Positions 1 through 11,743 of a stretch of DNA of 34,828 bases are shown in pieces. Both the position numbers and the translations under genes were made by a program. The notes under the pieces are model-generated. The model made no database searches. It saw only the letters and a list, made by a program, of their open reading frames with translations, and had not been told where the DNA came from. Source of the DNA: Methanomassiliicoccaceae archaeon (GTDB lineage: Archaea; Thermoplasmatota; Thermoplasmata; Methanomassiliicoccales; Methanomethylophilaceae); assembly GCA_003560875.1 (NCBI GenBank), contig PWJQ01000053.1, forward strand, positions 1-34,828. Direction: 5' to 3'. Every line of letters begins with the position of its first letter. The stretch's first letter is position 1.

Positions 1-857
1 GAGGTGAAGGCGGCGGCATGTAGCACCCTTTGTGATGACTCCAATGCCCCGTACATGACCCAATCGGCACCGGTCATCATCGCCACCGTGACTGCTGCCG
101 TATCAACGTAAGGGAACAGATTCTTACCATCGTCATCCGTCTCTATGAACGGCGGCCATGTCTCGACAGTGTTGTGTAAGGCCATTCCCGCCGGTAGGCC
201 CCATTTCGCTTTGGCGACAGTTAGAGCCCTGAGGGCGGAACCGGCGGATTGGTCGAACGTTGTGGCTGCCAGATCTATGATCGGACGTTTTATGCCGTGT
301 TCCTTCGATATGTCGATAAGCCCTTTACGCAGTAATGTGCCACCGTTGTCCAGGAGATAGATGCGCCCCTTCACAGTCAGATCCCCAGGGTCTAAAGCAT
401 TGATAACCGCCGAGTCCACGCCATGCTCCTGCAGAGCGCTCCATTCCTCAGGAGGGGAGCCGCCATGAAGGCTGTTGTATATCACACGCGAGGATATCCC
501 CATCGATTCGGCCTCTTTCAAAGCCTGTAACTTCACACTGATGTCTGGAGAATCTATAAGGATTGGTCCTGCCGATATATCGGACAACGACGAGAGCAGC
601 CCGTGGACCGCTTTCTCATGATCGAGGTGGGCCATGAATCCATGGCCCTGTTCCAGTTCCCGAGCGGTGTTTTCCGCCCTTGACACCATCTCCTGCAGTT
701 TCTCCATGTCGACCTTGCCCGCCTTCCTATCGACGACGACACTATGGCCCGGATAGAAGACGGAACCTATCATCACCGACGATCGCCTTCCGGGATGGCC
801 TCCGAACATGGTACCGGACACCTCGAAACTTGATTGATCCTTCTGGAATCTGAACAT
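1..857 (-). CDS. MtrH-family methyltransferase (partial, C-terminus beyond window)
   Basis: It reads minus from ATG at 857 through the left edge without a stop: 285 residues of a family usually 300-320 long, so only the last part is missing. The opening MFRFQKDQ, the GGHPG and SVFYPGH segments, the ILIDSPD strand, RVIYNSLHGG and the late MALHNTVETW and GADWVMYG segments line up with tetrahydromethanopterin S-methyltransferase subunit H as I remember it. MtrH moves methyl groups between tetrahydromethanopterin and a corrinoid protein. No other Mtr subunit or corrinoid protein is visible here, so it may be one of the MtrH relatives that serve soluble corrinoid proteins. The start shares one base with the preceding stop (TGATG), implying translational coupling. 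The family call is firm; the substrate is unknown. Confidence 0.85.
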   Translation of the reverse strand, partial: MFRFQKDQSSFEVSGTMFGGHPGRRSSVMIGSVFYPGHSVVVDRKAGKVDMEKLQEMVSRAENTARELEQGHGFMAHLDHEKAVHGLLSSLSDISAGPILIDSPDISVKLQALKEAESMGISSRVIYNSLHGGSPPEEWSALQEHGVDSAVINALDPGDLTVKGRIYLLDNGGTLLRKGLIDISKEHGIKRPIIDLAATTFDQSAGSALRALTVAKAKWGLPAGMALHNTVETWPPFIETDDDGKNLFPYVDTAAVTVAMMTGADWVMYGALESSQRVLHAAAFT

Positions 858-1306
858 CAATACCCTCCTGTAAGATAATCGCGCAATTTCATCGCCAGAG
901 TCATGGAGTCGACCCAACCATCCACGGGATTCAACATGACTCCTTGATCCATATCTATCGTAATGAACGGAGAGCTCGTGGAAAAACTCTCTGCAGCCAT
1001 CGCCATCATACCGGAAACGATACGGTCCGACAGAACATGCATCCCTTTCCCCAATCCCTCACCGTCCTTTCCGATCTCAGAGGAATGGTCGGGTATGGGT
1101 GTTGAATCGAAAGGTGCGTCATGACGTTCGTCCAACTTATTGCGCAATTCGACGAGACGGCCCTGTTCCTGCTGTGTGAATCCATACATCTGACCGTACT
1201 CGATTATCTCGTCAGCCTCCTTTGAGGCTATTGCTACGCTGGAAGCGCCATCATGCAGCTCATAGTCACCGATGATAGTGATCACGGCATCTTCGGTCAT
1301 CTTCAC
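857..1306 (-). CDS. Hypothetical protein in MtrH/GTPase cluster (149 aa)
   Basis: This 149-residue acidic protein is not one I recognise. It starts at GTG 1306, overlapping the previous stop as GTGA; an internal ATG two codons later (1300) is an alternative start. The N-terminal half is charged and probably helical (around EADEIIEYGQ and RLVELRNKL). The middle is rich in Gly, Asp and Ser. The C-terminal half has a methionine-rich helix (IVSGMMAMAAES) and then FITIDMDQG. No signal peptide, membrane segment, cysteine cluster or corrinoid-binding DxHxxG motif is visible. Its place between the G3E GTPase pair and the MtrH-family gene, overlapping at both ends, suggests a partner of that methyltransferase. 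That role is inferred from context only. Confidence 0.8.
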   Translation of the reverse strand: MKMTEDAVITIIGDYELHDGASSVAIASKEADEIIEYGQMYGFTQQEQGRLVELRNKLDERHDAPFDSTPIPDHSSEIGKDGEGLGKGMHVLSDRIVSGMMAMAAESFSTSSPFITIDMDQGVMLNPVDGWVDSMTLAMKLRDYLTGGY

Positions 1307-1734
1307 ACGACCGATTCACAGTAATCGAGTATTATCCGATGGTCTATGGAACGCTCCTTCATGGTCCTCGATATAGCATCCAGGGATATCCTCCGGACTT
1401 CAGGGTCCCATATGCCATGGACGATCACATGGAGCAGGAGTCTGCCCCCTTTGAACCCCTTGTCCTGCAGGAGGTCCTCGACCTCCACACCCGTACGCAT
1501 CGATACCAGGTTGGCCCGGAGCAGACGGTCATCGGGCGTGAGGAGACAACCTTTCACATGGCCTATGAAATCAGCCCCTCCCTCCAGACAGTCCTCTGTG
1601 ACCCGGGTCATGACCGTCCGCAGCAGTTCATCCGCCCCTTTTGAATCGAGGTCTACATTCGTCATCTCCAGATTGACGGCGAACTTCCCCAGCTCGTCCA
1701 TCGATCTGTGCCTGTCCAATTGTGGCTCATTCAT
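1303..1734 (-). CDS. Hypothetical protein overlapping the G3E GTPase gene (143 aa)
   Basis: This is a 143-residue protein of unknown function. The open frame extends further upstream into the GTPase gene, but ATG 1734 overlaps the GTPase stop by eight bases, the normal pattern for a coupled operon, so I chose it. It has regularly spaced charged helices (LLRTVMTRVTEDC, TGVEVEDLLQDKG) and ends YCESVV. Three cysteines (in EDCLEGG, KGCLLT and DYCES) do not form a recognisable metal motif. It ends overlapping the next gene (GTGA). Because it is coupled to a metallochaperone-type GTPase, it could be that GTPase's partner or target; the sequence alone does not show this. Confidence 0.8.
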   Translation of the reverse strand: MNEPQLDRHRSMDELGKFAVNLEMTNVDLDSKGADELLRTVMTRVTEDCLEGGADFIGHVKGCLLTPDDRLLRANLVSMRTGVEVEDLLQDKGFKGGRLLLHVIVHGIWDPEVRRISLDAISRTMKERSIDHRIILDYCESVV

Positions 1735-2401
1735 TCTTACCACCGTACTGCTCTTTGAATATGCCTCCGTCCACTGCATCATAGTAACGGACGGAGTCCT
1801 CACTGACGATGAGGTCGGCGAGGTCGGCCACCCCCTGCCCGGTCCTCCCTGAACCGGACAGTATCCTGACATCGGGGTTCAACTCCCCAATCCTCTCGTG
1901 GCACCAGTCAATCGATTCCTCATCGCATATGTCCACCTTGTTGATGAAGACCAGGTCGGCCTCCTGTATCTGCGTCTCTATCAGACGGCCTACGAACTGC
2001 AGTTGATCGGAGAGAAGGCTGCAGTCGACGAATGTGCAGATGGGGGCGTGCTTTATGTCGATGCCGCTTTTCCTTGTCGCCTCCTCCACGGCCTTCTTCA
2101 GACCCCATGGTATGGCAACGCCTGTCGGTTCAACCAGTATTATGTCCGGCTTGAAGGACAGATAGAGGTTCATGACCGTGGTGCTGAAGGTGCCCTGCAC
2201 CTCGCAGCAGATACATCCTCCGGCGACCTCCTTGACATCCATCCCCTTGGAACGCATGACCTCCTGATCGACATTTATGTGGCCGACATCGTTCACTATC
2301 AACGCCACCTTATTCCCTCTTGATCTGAGTTCAGATGCCATGGCGGTCAGGAAAGTCGTCTTCCCCGAACCTAAAAAACCTGTTACCTGTGCAATCCGCA
2401 A
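1727..2401 (-). CDS. G3E-family GTPase, CobW/COG0523-like, TTG start
   Basis: At 224 residues this is a compact G3E P-loop GTPase. Walker A is GFLGSGKTT (residues 8-16), followed by LIVNDVGHINVD, the CxCC metal-binding motif in GGCICCEV (cysteines at 63, 65 and 66), IILVEPTG and the guanine-specificity motif INKVD. GTPases with CxCC belong to COG0523, relatives of CobW and of zinc chaperones. The C-terminal extension common in CobW is essentially absent. The start is TTG at 2401, supported by a GGTGAGG ribosome site about four bases upstream; no ATG fits the N-terminal strand. Linkage to an MtrH-family gene suggests metal or corrinoid cofactor maturation for a methyltransferase, which is an inference. 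Confidence 0.92.
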   Translation of the reverse strand: MRIAQVTGFLGSGKTTFLTAMASELRSRGNKVALIVNDVGHINVDQEVMRSKGMDVKEVAGGCICCEVQGTFSTTVMNLYLSFKPDIILVEPTGVAIPWGLKKAVEEATRKSGIDIKHAPICTFVDCSLLSDQLQFVGRLIETQIQEADLVFINKVDICDEESIDWCHERIGELNPDVRILSGSGRTGQGVADLADLIVSEDSVRYYDAVDGGIFKEQYGGKNE

Positions 2402-2453
2402 ACGGCCTCACCTGGCCTCATACCGTACTGGATTATAGATAAGTTTAATCATC

Positions 2454-3092
2454 TCAGTCGTTGAATACCAGAAGCATATCGTTCCACGACCTGTACATTC
2501 TCCTGCCGTGGTATCTCTTTTCCTCCTTCCCCTGCAACGACCGTACGAGCGATGCATCGCTGAACAATGCCATCATCTCTTCCGGGTCTTGATAATGGTA
2601 CATGATTCCGTTGCCCCTCAGAAAACTGTGCGGCTCCACCTCCCTGCCCTGGCCGTAGCGCATATCACAACGGTCGAAACCCCTCTGGAATAGCCATCCG
2701 CCAGGGCTGATGCATCTCCTGATCTCTTTGGCAGCCATATCACGGTCGTGTCCGATGAGATGATTCAGCACGTGGACGGCGAGTATACCGTCGAAGAAGG
2801 AATCGGGGAAAGGGAGGTCCCGGACATCGGCCACCATGATGTCGTCATCATCACCGAATCGTTTCATGCAAATCTCCACTGCTGATGGTGAGAAATCTAT
2901 CGCATGGACCTCCGCGCCGGATGCTACAAGCTGTTCCAGTGTCTTGCCGTTGCCGCAACCTAGCTCCAGAATCCTTTGACCCTCGCAGGGCGGGAGGTCG
3001 ATATCGGAGACACCGCGCCAACCCATCGGTTGATTCCGGTAGTGGTCCTCCCACTCAATGGCGGATGGGCGGTGCTGAGGAGTTTCCTCCAT
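2454..3092 (-). CDS. Class I SAM-dependent methyltransferase
   Basis: A 212-residue Rossmann-fold methyltransferase. Motif I is ILELGCGNG (residues 41-49), followed by an acidic strand end in VHAIDFSPSAVEIC, motif DIMVADVRDLPFPDSFFDGILAVHVL and the post-motif CISPGGWLFQRGF, the usual order for methyltransferase domain 11/25 proteins. The substrate cannot be read from sequence. The start at ATG 3092 lies about 28 bases from a TATA-like element, so the message is probably leaderless. It is the first gene of a minus-strand run leading to the GTPase and MtrH-family genes, 52 bases before the TTG start of the GTPase. It may be part of that unit or merely adjacent. Confidence 0.88.
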   Translation of the reverse strand: MEETPQHRPSAIEWEDHYRNQPMGWRGVSDIDLPPCEGQRILELGCGNGKTLEQLVASGAEVHAIDFSPSAVEICMKRFGDDDDIMVADVRDLPFPDSFFDGILAVHVLNHLIGHDRDMAAKEIRRCISPGGWLFQRGFDRCDMRYGQGREVEPHSFLRGNGIMYHYQDPEEMMALFSDASLVRSLQGKEEKRYHGRRMYRSWNDMLLVFND

Positions 3093-3146: not shown

Positions 3147-3389
3147 ATGGATGAGAAGGGACAAGTCGTCCAACAACTCTGCCGCATTCCCGGAGTGAGT
3201 GAGAAGGCCGCCGAGGGGATGTATCTGCTCGGAATACGATCCATGGATGATCTCAAGGGTAGGGACGGTGACGATATGTACGCCGCTCTCCGCGAAAGAA
3301 AGGATTTCTTCGCGGAACCTTGTATGCAGAAGATGTTGAAGATAGCGGTCGGGATGGCTGACAAGGGCTACGCGGAAAAGTTCAAATGA
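3147..3389 (+). CDS. Helix-hairpin-helix protein, Cdd1 'pathogenicity locus' type (80 aa)
   Basis: An 80-residue protein with a helix-hairpin-helix signature near the N-terminus (CRIPGVSEKAAEGMYLLGI), then SMDDLKGRDGDDMYAALRE and a cysteine (PCMQKML). This matches the small Cdd1-like family as I recall it, although that family often carries more cysteines. Such proteins are thought to bind DNA, but their role is unsettled and the 'pathogenicity locus' name means nothing in an archaeon. It is probably leaderless from the TATA at 3115-3125. Its stop overlaps the ATG of the ACT-metallo-hydrolase gene (ATGA), so the two are likely co-translated. Confidence 0.8.
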   Translation: MDEKGQVVQQLCRIPGVSEKAAEGMYLLGIRSMDDLKGRDGDDMYAALRERKDFFAEPCMQKMLKIAVGMADKGYAEKFK

Positions 3390-4849
3390 GCCCGGGGCCG
3401 CACAGTTTCGTCGCCCGTATGCCCAACGAGCCTGGCGCCCTGCACAAAGCGGCGGCGGTATTGAAGAAGCACAACGGAAACATCGAACGCATCCAGTACG
3501 ACACACGTATCGACCCCAACACCGTATTCTTCGAACTCAGTGCCGAGGAGGACGACCTCCAGGCAGCGTTGGATGAGTTGGATGCCATGGGATATCTCAG
3601 ACGTACCCTTCCTGTACCGGCCTATCTTAAGTTCGACATCACTCTCCCTCATGTACCCGGCGCACTGTTTGATTTCCTGGAGATGATAACCGGTACCGGG
3701 ACTAACATCGCCTACCTCGACTATGACGAGACCGTGCCCCGGTGCGGTCCGCTTAGAGTCGCGGTGGTCATCGACGACGGCAGCCGGGCAAGCAAACTCC
3801 TGGATGGCCTCAAATCGAGTTATCCGTTGGAGATAATCGAACACAGCAGTGTGAACGAGGACCTCGAAAGCACCGTTTTTTACGTTCGCTTCGCGCAAGA
3901 GGTCCGTGCGCTAATCCCCGGCGTGGACGAGGATTTCCTATTGAGTTTCCTGAATGAATCCAATCACATAGCACAAGAGTTGACGCGACGGGGTGAGGAT
4001 CCAAGGAAGGTCCTGAGCAGCATATTGGACTCCGGACGGATGCTGAATGACAGTATCAGACCGGGATGTGCAGATATCAGATCCCTGGATGTCCGTGGGG
4101 GAAAGCTGCATTGCATCCAGTTCCCCTGCGGAGGTAACTCCTATCTGCTCGACATCGGTGCCCGGATAGTGATCGATACCGGTTTCGGGGCATATCGTGA
4201 ACACCTAACGGCGTGCATGAGGGACATCGGCTGGGACCGGGACGCGGTGGATGCCGTACTTATAACCCATGCGGACACCGACCACTGTGGTTCAGCATGG
4301 TCCCTGGGAGCCAAGGTGCACATGTCCCCGCAGGCCTATGACATCGCCTCCCGGTGCGACCGCTCCCATGGCTCGGAGGCGGAGGGAGGTCTGTTGGAGA
4401 CCTTCTACACCCGCATGATCGGACTCTTCTCGAATGCGGATGACACCGGACCGGTAGAACTACTCGATGGCGGTATCGGCTCCATCAACGGATTCGATGT
4501 CCAGGCCGAACTGGACATCTGCGGCGTCAATGTAATCGTCATCAGGGGCCGAGGCGGTCATCAGGAGGGGCAGTTGTTCTTCCTGTTCCCGGAATCACAT
4601 ATGATCTTCACCGGCGACAGCCTGATCAACTTCTCATCCCTGACCGAGGAGAGAAAGGAGTACATGACCCTGGCAAAAGTCCTCATGACCTCGGTTAACG
4701 TGGACAGCTCCAAGGCGAAGGAGGAACGTGACCTCTTGTTGGATCTGATAAGTAAGTGGCAGGATGATAGCGGCGATCCTCTAATCGTATGCCCTGGTCA
4801 TGGAGGGGTCTCGGTACTGAAGGACGACGACTTGATGCCTTGGCCTTAG
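3386..4849 (+). CDS. ACT-ACT-metallo-beta-lactamase fusion protein
   Basis: A 487-residue protein with two ACT-like modules at the N-terminus (about residues 4-75, ARMPNEPGALHKAAAVL; and 78-150, TLPHVPGALFDFLEMI), a helical linker and a metallo-beta-lactamase domain from about 230. The metal motif is HADTDH (His295, Asp297, Asp299, His300), so the second canonical histidine is aspartate. His392 (GGHQEG), Asp411 (TGDS) and His472 (PGHGG) complete the set. ACT modules usually bind amino acids, so an amino-acid-controlled hydrolase is plausible, but the substrate is unknown. It is coupled to the helix-hairpin-helix gene by ATGA and converges with the minus gene, their stop codons overlapping by four bases. 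Confidence 0.85.
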   Translation: MSPGPHSFVARMPNEPGALHKAAAVLKKHNGNIERIQYDTRIDPNTVFFELSAEEDDLQAALDELDAMGYLRRTLPVPAYLKFDITLPHVPGALFDFLEMITGTGTNIAYLDYDETVPRCGPLRVAVVIDDGSRASKLLDGLKSSYPLEIIEHSSVNEDLESTVFYVRFAQEVRALIPGVDEDFLLSFLNESNHIAQELTRRGEDPRKVLSSILDSGRMLNDSIRPGCADIRSLDVRGGKLHCIQFPCGGNSYLLDIGARIVIDTGFGAYREHLTACMRDIGWDRDAVDAVLITHADTDHCGSAWSLGAKVHMSPQAYDIASRCDRSHGSEAEGGLLETFYTRMIGLFSNADDTGPVELLDGGIGSINGFDVQAELDICGVNVIVIRGRGGHQEGQLFFLFPESHMIFTGDSLINFSSLTEERKEYMTLAKVLMTSVNVDSSKAKEERDLLLDLISKWQDDSGDPLIVCPGHGGVSVLKDDDLMPWP

Positions 4850-5325
4850 GCCATTAGACTGCATCCGTGAAGAAGTAGGAAATGTCCGACGGCCATCAAG
4901 GCCCTGGCATGATGGTCATCGACCGCACGGTTCACCACCAGCTCCGTCCTCGGTTCGGACCATGTGGATATGTCCGTCACCTCCATGACGTTGTTCGCAT
5001 CACCGTTGAAGAAGGCGAGCGATGTGTTGGAGCTGTTAAGATATTTTATCACGTAGACGGTACCGTCATCGAACACCAGTTGGGGTTCGAAGGCGTTCAG
5101 CTCGCGGATGGTCGCGAAGGATGCGTCATCGGATGAGATCTCTATCCTCGGCTTGATTAGTCCCTTTCTCCTTATGTTCAACCCCTTGCCGCCGAACACG
5201 CACTCAACTCTCACAGGGTCAAGATTCATCCGGCATAGTTCATTGGTACCCTCGCGGAGTATGAATTCCTCCCCGGCGAGAGTCCAGTGCAGCCGCTTAC
5301 GCACCAGGCCCGAACAGAACGCCAT
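4846..5325 (-). CDS. Hypothetical protein (159 aa)
   Basis: A 159-residue protein I do not recognise. It looks strand-rich, with repeated short beta segments (GEEFILREGTNELC, VRVECVFGGKGLNI, PRIEISSDD, PQLVFDDGTVYVIKYL) and a more helical C-terminus (HARALMAVGHFLLLHGCS). This could be a small beta-barrel of the LURP/tubby-like kind, which is only a guess from the pattern. There is no signal peptide or clear membrane span. The start at ATG 5325 is 25 bases from the centre of a TATA element (5345-5354), so the message is probably leaderless and separate from the symporter upstream. Confidence 0.7.
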   Translation of the reverse strand: MAFCSGLVRKRLHWTLAGEEFILREGTNELCRMNLDPVRVECVFGGKGLNIRRKGLIKPRIEISSDDASFATIRELNAFEPQLVFDDGTVYVIKYLNSSNTSLAFFNGDANNVMEVTDISTWSEPRTELVVNRAVDDHHARALMAVGHFLLLHGCSLMA

Positions 5326-7217: not shown

Positions 7218-7640
7218 TCAGACGAGGTCCTTCTTGTCTAATGGTTGGAAACCATCCCCCTTCAGAAGACTGATGGAACGGAGGGCGTCATCGGCCTTGA
7301 GCACGAGTACGGCTCCGTCACCTTTGCGGAAGGCGTAGGCGTAAGCGATATTGACACCGAGTTGGGCGCAGCGTGCAGCCACGCGGTGCAGGCCTCCCGG
7401 GTTGTCCTCGATCGGTAAGGCGATCACGTCGCTGCATGACACGGTGTGCCCGTTGGCCTTGAGGGCGGCATAGGCCTCATCGGTACGGTCGAGTATGAAA
7501 CGGACTATGCCGAAGTTCTCACCCTCGGCTATGCTGAAACCCAGGATGTTTGCTCCCGCCTCACCTATCGTACCGGTGACCTCGGCGAGTCTCCCCACCC
7601 GGTTCTCCACCATGACCGAGAGCTGCTTGACCAGGGTCAC
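7218..7640 (-). CDS. Tandem ACT-domain protein (copy 2)
   Basis: A 140-residue protein made of two ACT modules: LSVMVENRVGRLAEVTGTI (about residues 7-70) and ALPIEDNPGGLHRVAARCA (about 73-135). ACT modules bind small ligands, usually amino acids. The start is GTG 7640, overlapping the ligase stop as GTGA. The same gene order and similar sequence occur in the other cassette at 9990-11716. Proteins of this type sit beside phenylacetate-CoA ligases in many archaea, and some ligases carry the domain fused, so it probably senses aromatic amino acids for the ligase. That role is inferred. Confidence 0.88.
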   Translation of the reverse strand: MTLVKQLSVMVENRVGRLAEVTGTIGEAGANILGFSIAEGENFGIVRFILDRTDEAYAALKANGHTVSCSDVIALPIEDNPGGLHRVAARCAQLGVNIAYAYAFRKGDGAVLVLKADDALRSISLLKGDGFQPLDKKDLV

Positions 7641-8941
7641 ATCATCACCCTCTTGTCTATGACCCTCTTGGCCTTGCCTTCGAAACGGGGGAGGGAACCG
7701 GGCTCCATCAATTGAACGTCGACCTTCACATTGAGCACCTCCTGTAGTGCCTTGGCGACCTTGGACGAGATGCCTCTCAGAGCGAGGATGTCATCGGTGA
7801 AGGCCTTGGGGTCTAACTCCACCTGCACCGACATGTTGTCCATCACTCCGCGGGACTCGATGATCATCATGTATTGCTGGGTGACTTCATCTATCTCACC
7901 CAAAACATGCTCCACCTGGGACGGGAAGACGTTGATGCCGCGTATGATTATCATGTCGTCCACCCTGCCGGTGAGACGCTGCAGCCTCGGATGGGTCCGA
8001 CCGCAGTTGCATTTCTCCCATGTGATCTCACTCAGATCACCTATGCGATATCTTATGATCGGCAGTGCCTCCCGGCGGAGCATGGTGAATACCAACTCTC
8101 CCCGCTCACCGTCACCGACGTGCTCTCCGGTCTCAGGGTCGATTACCTCCACCAGGCAGAGGTCCCCCCATATGTGTATGCCGTCCTGCTCGTGGCATTC
8201 GGTGAAAAGAGGGCCCGAGAGCTCGCTGGCCCCATAGCAGTTCTGGGCCTTTATCCCCATTTTACCCTCTATGTGCCGGCGCATGTTCTCGGACCATGGC
8301 TCGGCACCCAGTATGGCGGCCCTCATACGGGTGTCATTGCGGAAATCCAGACCCATGCCCTCGGCGACTTCGGCCATGTGCACCAGATAAGAAGGGGTGC
8401 AGGCGATGGCAGTGACCTTGAGGTCACGTATCAGATCTATCTGCTTCTTGGTCCCGCCTGTACTGGCGGGAACGGCGGCGGCACCGAGCTTCTCCACACC
8501 GTAGTGCATGCCCAGGCCACCGGAGAAAAGACCGTACCCGTTGCTCACCTGTATCACATCCCTCTTCCCCAGACCGAATGAGGCGAAGCTCCGAGCCAGT
8601 GATTCGGACCAGTTCTCAATGTCGTTGCGGGTGTAACCGACCACGGTGGGCTTGCCGGTGGTCCCAGAGGATACATGGTACCTGATGACGTCCTCCGGCG
8701 GAGCGGTGAACAGTTTGTCAGGGTAGTTGTCCCTGAGGTCTGTCTTGTTCATGGTGGGCAATCTGACGATGTCCTCCAACGAAAGTATGTCCCCTGGTAG
8801 CACTCCTGCCTCACGCATTCGGGAATGGTAGTGTGGTGAGGAATCGTAGAGCCTTGACACGAGCTCCTTGAGTGAGCTCAACTGCATACGCTCGATATCC
8901 TCCCTGCCCATGGTCTCGATGTTTTGGTTCCAGCATTCCAT
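7637..8941 (-). CDS. paaK: Phenylacetate-CoA ligase family protein (copy 2)
   Basis: A 434-residue adenylate-forming ligase. It has the phosphate-binding loop YHVSSGTTGKPTVVGYT, CTPSYLVHMAEVA, the GAEPWSE and CYGASELSGP segments, a YRIGDLSEI motif, a CNCGRTHPRL segment and the hinge region DDMIIIRGINVFPSQVE. The family makes arylacetyl-CoA from arylacetate, ATP and CoA. I start it at ATG 8941 (MECWNQ), which aligns with the other copy; ATG 8947 is an alternative, and GAGG lies just before both. It is coupled to the downstream ACT gene. It is clearly related to copy 1 but diverged throughout, so the duplication is not recent. Phenylacetate, indoleacetate and hydroxyphenylacetate are all possible substrates. 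Confidence 0.93.
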   Translation of the reverse strand: MECWNQNIETMGREDIERMQLSSLKELVSRLYDSSPHYHSRMREAGVLPGDILSLEDIVRLPTMNKTDLRDNYPDKLFTAPPEDVIRYHVSSGTTGKPTVVGYTRNDIENWSESLARSFASFGLGKRDVIQVSNGYGLFSGGLGMHYGVEKLGAAAVPASTGGTKKQIDLIRDLKVTAIACTPSYLVHMAEVAEGMGLDFRNDTRMRAAILGAEPWSENMRRHIEGKMGIKAQNCYGASELSGPLFTECHEQDGIHIWGDLCLVEVIDPETGEHVGDGERGELVFTMLRREALPIIRYRIGDLSEITWEKCNCGRTHPRLQRLTGRVDDMIIIRGINVFPSQVEHVLGEIDEVTQQYMMIIESRGVMDNMSVQVELDPKAFTDDILALRGISSKVAKALQEVLNVKVDVQLMEPGSLPRFEGKAKRVIDKRVMM

Positions 8942-9027
8942 ATGCATTCCTCAAAGAGTGCCGTGATAGGACATGACACGATTTTTGATTGTGTAAGGGA
9001 TGTCCCTATTTGATGATATCTCCGCCC

Positions 9028-9989: not shown

Positions 9990-10418
9990 CTACAGGTCCC
10001 CTTCCTGCATCAGCTTAACGCCGCGGTCGGTCAGGGCCTTTATGGCCGACTCGGTGTCATCGACACGTATGAAGAATGTCGCTCCGCCCTTTCCGGAGTA
10101 GGCGTATCCATACTCTATGTTGATACCCTCCTCACCGAGCACAGCCGCCGCCTCGAAGAGCCCTCCGGGGCGGTCCTGCATCGGTATGGCGATGACCTCG
10201 GTCTCCTTCACGATGACGCCGCGTTCCTTGAGCCGGGAATAGGCCCTGTCGGGCTCCCGCACGATGGCTCGGAACACACCGAAGCCGCTGGCCTCGGCGA
10301 TGTTGAAGGCACATATGTCTATGCCCTCCTCACTGAGCATCTTGGCGATCTTGGCGAGCCTTCCAGGTTCGTTGTTCACGAACACGGATATCTGCTTTAT
10401 GATGTGTCTTCGGGGCAT
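9990..10418 (-). CDS. Tandem ACT-domain protein (copy 1)
   Basis: A 142-residue protein with two ACT modules: ISVFVNNEPGRLAKIAKML (about residues 10-72) and AIPMQDRPGGLFEAAAVLG (about 76-138). ATG 10418 shares its A with the ligase stop (TAATG), giving translational coupling. It is a paralogue of the ACT protein at 7218-7640, matching in the FNIAEASGFGVFR region and the VIAIP linker. It is probably an amino-acid-binding regulator of the ligase. The two copies differ in the loops that normally contact the ligand, so they may sense different amino acids. That last point is inference. Confidence 0.88.
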   Translation of the reverse strand: MPRRHIIKQISVFVNNEPGRLAKIAKMLSEEGIDICAFNIAEASGFGVFRAIVREPDRAYSRLKERGVIVKETEVIAIPMQDRPGGLFEAAAVLGEEGINIEYGYAYSGKGGATFFIRVDDTESAIKALTDRGVKLMQEGDL

Positions 10419-11716
10419 TAGAAAACCCTCTTGTCGATGACCCTCTTGGCCTTCCCTTCGAACCGGGGTAGCGAGCCGGGGTCCATCAGCTCTACGTTCA
10501 CGGAGATGTTGAGGTATTTCTTCATATCAGAGTCGATCTTCTTCTTGATTGCCATCATATCGGACATCTTGTCGCTGAAGTGATCGGGGCACAGTTCGGT
10601 CTGAACGGTCATGACGTCCAAGGCTCCTTTCCGATCCAGGATTATCATGAACTGCTCGCCGACCTCGGGGATGTTCATCAAGGTGTGCTCGACCTGTGAC
10701 GGGAAGATGTTGATGCCTCGTATGATCAGCATGTCATCGGTCCTGCCGCTTATCCTTCCTATACGTGCGGAGGTCCTGCCGCATTCGCACTTCTCCTCCA
10801 GGGCGTAGGTCAGATCGCGTATGCGGTAGCGGATCATCGGCATGGCCTCCTTCTTGAGAACCGTTATGACCAACTCACCCTCCTCCCCCTCGGGAACAGG
10901 TTCCTCGGTCTCAGGGTCCAGGATCTCCACGATGGCAACATCTCCCCAAACATGGATGCCGTTGCGTTCCTCGCACTCCGTGAACATCGGGCCGGAGAGT
11001 TCTGAGGTTCCATAGATATCGTAAGCCTGTATGCCCAGAGTCTCCTGTATATGCTGGCGCATGCCTTCCGACCATGGCTCAGCGCCGAGGACGGCCTTCC
11101 TCAATTTGGTGTCGCGCTGGAAATCGATGCCCAGCTTCTTAGCCACCTCGCCCATGTGTATCATGTATGATGGCGTGCAGGCGATGGCAGTGACCTCGAG
11201 GTCTATCATCAGCTCCAACTGTCTCTCGGTGTTGCCGACGCTGGCAGGCAAAACCGTCGCCCCTACACGTTCTGCCCCGTAGTGCAGCCCCAGACCTCCG
11301 GTGAACAGGCCGTAACCATAGGATACCTGGACGACGTCCCCGGTCCCTATGCCTATGGACGTCAGGGCACGGGCTAGGCTATCCGTCCAGAACTCTATGT
11401 CCTGGGCGGTGTAGCCCACAAGCGTTGGTTTGCCGGTGGTGCCCGATGAGACGTGATAACGAACGACCTCGTCGCGGGTTGATGTGAATAACTTGGTAGG
11501 GTAATGGTCCCGAAGGTCCTGCTTGTGCATGAAAGGTAGCTTGCGGATATCCTCGAGGGACTGGATGTCGTCAGGGTGGACACCCTGCTCCTTCATACGG
11601 TCGCGATAGAAGTTGTTGAAACTATAGAGCCGATAAACCAGGGTCTTCAACTCCCTGAACTGATGTCTTTTCAGTTCTTCCTTCGGCATACATTCCATGC
11701 GGGCATTCCAATACAT
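10418..11716 (-). CDS. paaK: Phenylacetate-CoA ligase family protein (copy 1)
   Basis: A 432-residue adenylate-forming ligase with the same motif series as copy 2: YHVSSGTTGKPTLVGYT, CTPSYMIHMGEVA, VLGAEPWSEGM, IYGTSELSGP, YRIRDLTYA, CECGRTSARI and DDMLIIRGINIFPSQVE. The frame is open to ATG 11743, but GGAGGAG lies eight bases before ATG 11716 (MYWNARME), which also aligns with the other ligase, so I chose 11716. It makes arylacetyl-CoA from an aryl acid with ATP and CoA. It is probably the first gene of a five-gene minus-strand run (ligase, ACT, SelB-like, ligase, ACT) driven by a TATA element near 11753-11760. Confidence 0.93.
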   Translation of the reverse strand: MYWNARMECMPKEELKRHQFRELKTLVYRLYSFNNFYRDRMKEQGVHPDDIQSLEDIRKLPFMHKQDLRDHYPTKLFTSTRDEVVRYHVSSGTTGKPTLVGYTAQDIEFWTDSLARALTSIGIGTGDVVQVSYGYGLFTGGLGLHYGAERVGATVLPASVGNTERQLELMIDLEVTAIACTPSYMIHMGEVAKKLGIDFQRDTKLRKAVLGAEPWSEGMRQHIQETLGIQAYDIYGTSELSGPMFTECEERNGIHVWGDVAIVEILDPETEEPVPEGEEGELVITVLKKEAMPMIRYRIRDLTYALEEKCECGRTSARIGRISGRTDDMLIIRGINIFPSQVEHTLMNIPEVGEQFMIILDRKGALDVMTVQTELCPDHFSDKMSDMMAIKKKIDSDMKKYLNISVNVELMDPGSLPRFEGKAKRVIDKRVF

Positions 11717-11743
11717 CAGGTTCTCCTCCGACAGGGATTGCAT

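Follow-up and report, generated by a model that had tools for sequence, protein, structure and literature searches.

An MtrA-MtrH operon with an excised corrinoid domain and a candidate two-gene GTPase helper in an archaeon of the order Methanomassiliicoccales

The DNA considered here, referred to as the window, is one entire contig of 34,828 bp (G000:C11) belonging to an archaeal genome (G000) that is 1.05 Mb in size, 81% complete and contains mcrA. The archaeon is most likely a methane-maker from soda lakes; the nearest named relatives (CSSed10_308, CSBr16_145, CSBr16_211 and T1Sed10_112) carry isolate names from such lakes. At the left end of the window, four minus-strand open reading frames follow each other in the order 224-aa G3E GTPase, 143-aa protein (P143), 149-aa protein (P149) and MtrH-like methyltransferase. 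Consecutive genes overlap at every junction, as the original prediction from the sequence had stated: by 8 nt between the GTPase and P143, by 4 nt between P143 and P149 if the GTG start is used (an alternative ATG, kept in relatives, lies 2 nt past the stop), and by 1 nt between P149 and MtrH (TGATG). The comparison set consists of 147 genomes of the order (labelled G000 and so on), and in four of these from the window's own genus (G105, G106, G107 and G108) the gene order is identical; the arrangement is therefore not an accident of a single assembly. Because the window is a whole contig, the contig end truncates MtrH, and the genes to the left of MtrH cannot be read there. The main features are:

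3..857, minus strand: MtrH-like methyltransferase (PF02007), reading frame running off the contig and short of about 12 residues at the C-terminus
857..1306, minus strand: P149, 149 aa, a remnant of MtrA (MtrA1) that keeps ~27 N-terminal residues of an MtrA-like corrinoid protein together with its C-terminal extension
1226..1228, minus strand: deletion junction in P149, located by DNA alignment with G106
1303..1734, minus strand: P143, 143 aa, partner of the short G3E GTPase (alignment, AlphaFold2 model, pairing)
1727..2401, minus strand: short single-domain COG0523-type G3E GTPase, 224 aa, TTG start (PF02492, 134 bits)

Both small proteins had been thought to belong to no known family, which proved wrong for P149 and incomplete for P143. 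On its own, P149 matches nothing in the Pfam and NCBIfam libraries, and a direct scan of genome contigs with P149 found no relative. Searching all genomes of the order did, however, find its C-terminal 124 residues in 41/147 genomes, with MtrH nearly always the next gene downstream. Most of these relatives sit inside frames of ~260 aa; such intact MtrA-like proteins align with P149 through their residues ~138-262, a homology that rules out P149 as an unrelated family. The intact proteins upstream of MtrH are MtrA, with PF04208 matches at E 1e-35 to 1e-48 in the intact ones scanned, an E of 1e-32 against PDB 5laa, and the GHxxG histidine region present. MtrA and MtrH (41/147 and 42/147) occur in the same genomes and form a pair in about 40, intact MtrA lying directly upstream in most.

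The P149 of the window has itself lost the B12-binding part of this protein. The orthologue in G106 passes PF04208 (127.5 bits against a cut-off of 25) and carries the sequence EFGHYPGDA, whereas the window protein does not match PF04208: relative to G106, 315 bp (105 codons) are missing in frame between SSVAIA and KEADEII, which takes most of the cobalamin-binding domain including the GHYPG region of the axial histidine. P149 is thus a remnant, not a working MtrA. G107 has a different in-frame deletion of 546 bp (182 codons), with nearly the same left point, and keeps about the last 50 residues. In a tree of G3E, P143, MtrH and a second MtrA (MtrA2, below), G106 and G107 are sisters (97/96 support) and G000 lies outside; given different deletions in spite of this sister relationship, the losses in the window and in G107 look independent, as the simplest reading of the sequences. 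The MtrA1 of G105 is full length but degenerate and very divergent (branch 1.75), its GHxPGDA pattern having been lost (GHFQARA).

A second MtrA, MtrA2, lies at an unrelated locus of the same genome (G000:C16 8213-9004, L081), with an intact GREDGHYPGDA region and no MtrH beside it. MtrA2 is present in the genomes with a damaged MtrA1 (G000, G105 and G107) and also in G106. In the tree, its closest company is the MtrA of G011 and G014 in another family (100/100), which rules out a recent duplicate of MtrA1; being of a clade otherwise seen in G011 and G014, MtrA2 was possibly acquired horizontally. Measured against G106, dN/dS values, which are rough as dS is about 1 or more and near saturation, are 0.04 for G3E and P143, 0.09 for MtrH, 0.10 for MtrA2 and 0.25 for the MtrA1 remnant; against G107 and G106 they range from 0.05 to 0.09 for MtrH, and MtrA2 spans 0.09 to 0.18. 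Relative-rate counts are balanced for G3E and P143, and skewed for the G000 remnant (11:1 changes, p 0.006, outgroup G108) and for the corrinoid domain of G105 MtrA1 (29:9, p 0.002). We read these rates as suggesting that constraint on MtrA1 was relaxed after the arrival of MtrA2, and the corrinoid domain was probably cut out because the second MtrA had taken over its job.

MtrH matches PF02007 at 194.4 bits (E 3e-57; cut-off 22.8) over profile positions 1-281 of 299, and is a member of that family as predicted. Its PDB matches are the MtrH of 9qtp (E 2e-41) and MtgA, 6sj8 (E 3e-29). It scores below the TIGR01114 equivalog (198.2 against 271.4 bits, slightly underscored by the ~12 missing residues) and below the MtgA equivalog NF047990 (133.8 against 550 bits). 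The original prediction had MtrH standing without other Mtr subunits or a corrinoid protein. The lack of an Mtr operon holds in relatives: MtrE (PF04206) is absent from all 147 genomes under a search that did detect it in the controls M. jannaschii and M. acetivorans, and in G105-G108 the genes to the left of MtrH are a receiver-only response regulator and hisD (named from sequence), which together rule out a full Mtr operon there. The original prediction had also proposed to look on that side for a corrinoid protein or its activator, and these same two genes are what the relatives show; the corrinoid subunit lies instead on the right, as the 149-aa remnant, so that one of the small proteins does belong to a known family, albeit one related to the system. 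Mch, too, is missing from all 147 genomes, with working positive controls. MTHFR is present in 34/42 MtrH-positive and 14/105 MtrH-negative genomes (14/16 and 6/14 at genus level, p 0.02). The presence of MTHFR and absence of Mch support, without proving, N5-methyl-tetrahydrofolate (methyl-THF) as the methyl carrier of MtrH.

The GTPase carries Walker A (GFLGSGKTT), NKVD and the CxCC motif (GGCICCE), confirming its assignment to the COG0523 type of G3E GTPases. Its best PDB relative is YjiA (E 2.8e-14), aligned over residues 3-178 only. The 224-aa chain stops after the GTPase domain and lacks the CobW_C domain that most COG0523 members have on the same chain; CobW_C (PF07683) was not found anywhere in the window's own genome. 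A His-rich stretch, a COG0523 trait (PMC2770081) present in about 40% of members, is lacking in the window proteins and carried by 12 of 69 P143 relatives.

Searches of Pfam, NCBIfam and PDB sequences found nothing that matches P143, TAF6 at E 0.23 being a chance match only. In an alignment of 48 sequences its invariant residues include C49, H59, H102, H106 and D110, and its AlphaFold2 model is confident (pLDDT 91.6, pTM 0.85), with a predicted ferredoxin-like alpha/beta fold. The family occurs in 82/147 genomes as several paralogous groups and appears restricted to the order: all 25 matches in a phylum sample of 341 genomes lie within it, and the 55 loci from a genome-contig search have titles that are Methanomassiliicoccales-type or less specific. 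A short G3E gene lies directly upstream in 68/69 members, the remaining one being at a locus edge; apparent G3E-P143 fusions in G071, G009 and G114 were rejected, as their long open frames are N-terminal read-through only. By probability, the top Foldseek match of the model is YjiA (0.98-0.99, E 4e-3, TMq 0.39; aligned region unstated), and by our reading of the YjiA sequence the order of secondary structures in P143 resembles that of its C-terminal half. The pairing is a plain observation; that P143 is the C-terminal-type domain of a split COG0523 protein, with the GTPase encoded by the preceding gene, is a hypothesis that we favour modestly, and a split chaperone made of the two proteins is plausible but not proven.

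The G3E-P143 pairs also occur in genomes without MtrAH and are therefore not specific to MtrH. Paralogous pairs share clusters with genes for B12-binding, UroD/MtaA-like, 106-aa, hydantoinase-like ASKHA and DUF1638 proteins (G000 has its own counterpart, L197); in another setting they have MtrA-MtrH nearby, along with two UroD genes and an activator of the RACo type (L156, L164 and L172). The metal- or corrinoid-loading role originally proposed fits this company of B12-binding, UroD/MtaA-like and ATP-driven activator proteins well.

Some further observations concern these clusters. The ~106-aa protein (L184 6457-6777 and L197 9442-9762) is Cys-rich, is flanked by P143 and the ASKHA protein within the corrinoid-protein/UroD cluster and has no Pfam match; the genome's own copy contains CPDCGFEFSMMYARTIACQGC. 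Distant G3E-P143 pairs (L227-L236, e.g. G005:C3, G135:C1, G023:C1 and G000:C68) lie mostly between enolase-like and topoisomerase-like genes, labels taken from sequence, and several have His-rich C-terminal tails; that of G023 (L231) is directly upstream of a RACo-type activator.

Taken together, the locus would be an operon for a soluble MtrAH methyltransferase that brings along its own two-gene GTPase helper. MtrH would exchange a methyl group between N5-methyl-THF and the cobalt of an MtrA-type corrinoid protein, which a UroD/MtaA-like enzyme could connect to coenzyme M. Working jointly, as the halves of a COG0523 protein do, the GTPase and P143 may load or maintain the cobalt or cobamide (or a metal) of corrinoid methyltransferases. 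MtrA2 would most likely serve the window's MtrH in trans, the operon MtrA having lost its corrinoid-binding domain, and the remnant may be kept in frame through translation coupling to mtrH; we infer that only in-frame losses are seen because translation of mtrH is coupled to the upstream frame (TGATG). We regard this as the best explanation of the whole, with a probability of about 0.6; the gene layout, the MtrA homology of P149, its deletion, the existence of MtrA2 and the pairing of G3E with P143 are direct observations, and the substrate, the partner in trans, the chaperone role and the coupling are inferred. The direction of methyl transfer, toward methane or with methyl groups passing into biosynthesis, is beyond what sequence tells. 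More tentatively, G3E-P143 may be a split COG0523-type cobamide or metal machine for corrinoid methyltransferases throughout the order, with paralogous pairs for each client (MtrAH, MtbC-like/UroD and RACo-linked), one genus having repeatedly excised the client domain of MtrA while an MtrA of another clade acts in trans.

Several points weigh against this account. The genomes compared are incomplete metagenome-assembled genomes (MAGs). The Foldseek E-values for P143 are weak (above 1e-3, at a TM of 0.39), and HHalign of P143 against CobW_C gave a probability of 0.2%, using a weak three-sequence profile (YjiA, YeiR and one member from the order). The dN/dS of the remnant is under neutral, so that some function of the remnant is possible; with G118 as outgroup its excess of changes is 5:2 and not significant, and MtrH is itself somewhat accelerated in G000 (25:10). 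G106 holds MtrA2 yet retains an intact MtrA1, and MtrA2 comes from a different MtrA clade, its pairing with the window's MtrH being our conjecture. Contig C18 of G000 carries a cluster of the UroD/G3E-P143/ASKHA type, which in relatives includes an MtbC-like corrinoid protein. Finally, the association of MTHFR with MtrH is largely phylogenetic and not significant in the genus-level test within family f1 (p 0.5).

P149 could also be functional, the C-terminal extension of MtrA acting as a stand-alone dock or scaffold for MtrH and cobalamin being brought by MtrA2 or another corrinoid protein. Its dN/dS of 0.25 rather than 1 would agree with this, as would the open frames kept in both G000 and G107 and the C-terminal motif (NPVDG, LRDYLTGGY) retained in both deleted versions. 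We nevertheless consider it unlikely: the remnant evolves faster than every neighbour, with the 11:1 excess given above for outgroup G108, has lost a nearly invariant Asp (EYDP to EYGQ) and a further three codons, and acquires no stable fold in AlphaFold2 (pLDDT 54.9), and G107 retains so little of it. Much less probable still is an assembly artefact hiding an intact MtrA1 in the organism, even though the 34.8-kb contig is metagenome-assembled and the gene lies 860 bp from its end. In intact relatives the breakpoints have no word longer than 7 nt in common, which makes an assembly error unlikely; moreover, the window deletion is in frame, a related MAG (G107) has another in-frame deletion, and substitutions in the remnant are accelerated as well.

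For the GTPase pair, the choice is more finely balanced. P143 might be an unrelated client-specific adaptor, or a metal- or cobamide-binding protein working with the GTPase, rather than a detached COG0523 domain; it has no sequence link to CobW_C, its Pfam and PDB sequence searches were empty, it has a set of invariant Cys, His and Asp residues of its own, and its fold matches are weak and ferredoxin-like folds common. Against such an adaptor, to which we allow a real but less than even chance, stand the pairing with a single-domain G3E in 68/69 members, YjiA as the fold match of highest probability, the YjiA-like order of secondary structures in our reading, and the His-rich tails of 12/69 members, as in COG0523. 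The pair might alternatively serve another metal site, for instance Zn in UroD-type methyltransferases or Ni in CODH/ACS, instead of the corrinoid protein. Zn is handled by some members of COG0523 and needed by MtaA-type enzymes (PMC2770081), and UroD genes often neighbour G3E-P143; in the window's genus, however, the pair adjoins mtrA and mtrH instead of UroD. We allow this reading, too, a fair but less than even chance.

The region upstream of the GTPase gene contains two further features:

2402..2453, minus strand: 52-bp gap preceding the GTPase gene, containing the AT-rich TTAAACTTATCTATAA as well as GGTGAGG, read from sequence
2454..3092, minus strand: S-adenosylmethionine (SAM)-dependent class I methyltransferase (PF08241, E 6e-23), directly upstream of the GTPase gene

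The gap is partly conserved in G106 and G107, and TTAAACTTATCTATAA and GGTGAGG are a possible promoter and ribosome site, respectively. The methyltransferase matches NF043040 (corrinoid protein-associated methyltransferase CpaM) weakly, at 50 bits and below the cut-off, and the order methyltransferase-G3E-P143 recurs in termite-gut relatives without MtrAH (L146-L152; synteny). Adjoining the operon across the genus is a plus-strand gene (3386-4849) for a 487-aa protein with two ACT-like domains and a metallo-beta-lactamase domain (PF01842, PF00753). A genus-conserved 159-aa protein without Pfam match (4846-5325, minus strand) lies between this gene and a sodium:solute symporter. Upstream of the symporter gene are two phenylacetate-CoA-ligase-like genes (7637-8947 and 10418-11743, minus strand), each followed by a small ACT-like protein, both labels coming from reading the sequence alone.

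How the corrinoid proteins of methylotrophic methanogens acquire and maintain their cobamide or metal is poorly understood. P143 is inseparable from its CxCC GTPase, and the two, which neighbour several types of module for corrinoid methyltransferases within a single methanogen order, offer a concrete two-protein system. That MtrA repeatedly lost its corrinoid domain, with MtrH preserved beside it, amounts to a natural experiment on the true corrinoid protein of MtrH in the absence of the Mtr complex. Parts of this picture are already known. The mtrA and mtrH genes without mtrB-G, with an extra C-terminal extension on MtrA, have been described in the 'Lake Pavin' and environmental clades of Methanomassiliicoccales (2018, PMC6147122; 2024, PMC10804542), Speth and Orphan proposing N5-methyl-THF specificity for the Lake Pavin clade (PMC6147122) and a 2024 survey of the order recording both genes in environmental clades (PMC10804542); a 2009 paper had pointed out that COG0523 is linked to corrinoid methyltransferases (PMC2770081). 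Among the open-licence papers searched, none was found to describe P143 as a family whose gene obligatorily follows that of the GTPase, an operon of the type G3E-P143-MtrA-MtrH, or a corrinoid domain of MtrA excised repeatedly in genomes that hold a second MtrA; both the partner family and the recurrent domain loss seem to be new.

Among known systems, E. coli YjiA (1nij, 4ixm) shares the GTPase domain and is the protein found by the P143 model, but is one 318-aa two-domain protein rather than two genes, and no sequence similarity of P143 to its C-terminal half was detected. COG0523 subfamily 13, located by mtaABC and ramM in Methanosarcina (PMC2770081), likewise places a CxCC G3E GTPase beside corrinoid methyltransferases and activators, whereas the GTPase of the window has a single domain, and its gene precedes a separate P143-family gene. 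MtgA (6sj8), a methylcorrinoid:tetrahydrofolate methyltransferase, is an MtrH-family enzyme that uses THF and needs no membrane complex; it is part of a glycine betaine system, not of one with MtrA, and the window MtrH falls far short of its equivalog (134 against 550 bits). The Na+-pumping Mtr complex MtrA-H (5laa, 8q3v, 9qtp) is matched by MtrH (E 2e-41) and by the cobalamin domain of the relatives' MtrA (E 1e-32); in contrast to that complex, the order's 147 genomes have neither MtrE nor Mch, and a C-terminal MtrA extension of ~120 residues replaces the membrane anchor. The soluble MtrAH of the Lake Pavin and environmental clades has mtrA and mtrH, no mtrB-G, the C-terminal extension on MtrA and the proposed specificity for N5-methyl-THF. 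From this system the window differs in that its operon MtrA is devoid of the corrinoid domain, a second MtrA of another clade lies elsewhere in the genome, and G3E-P143 and a SAM-dependent methyltransferase form part of the gene run.

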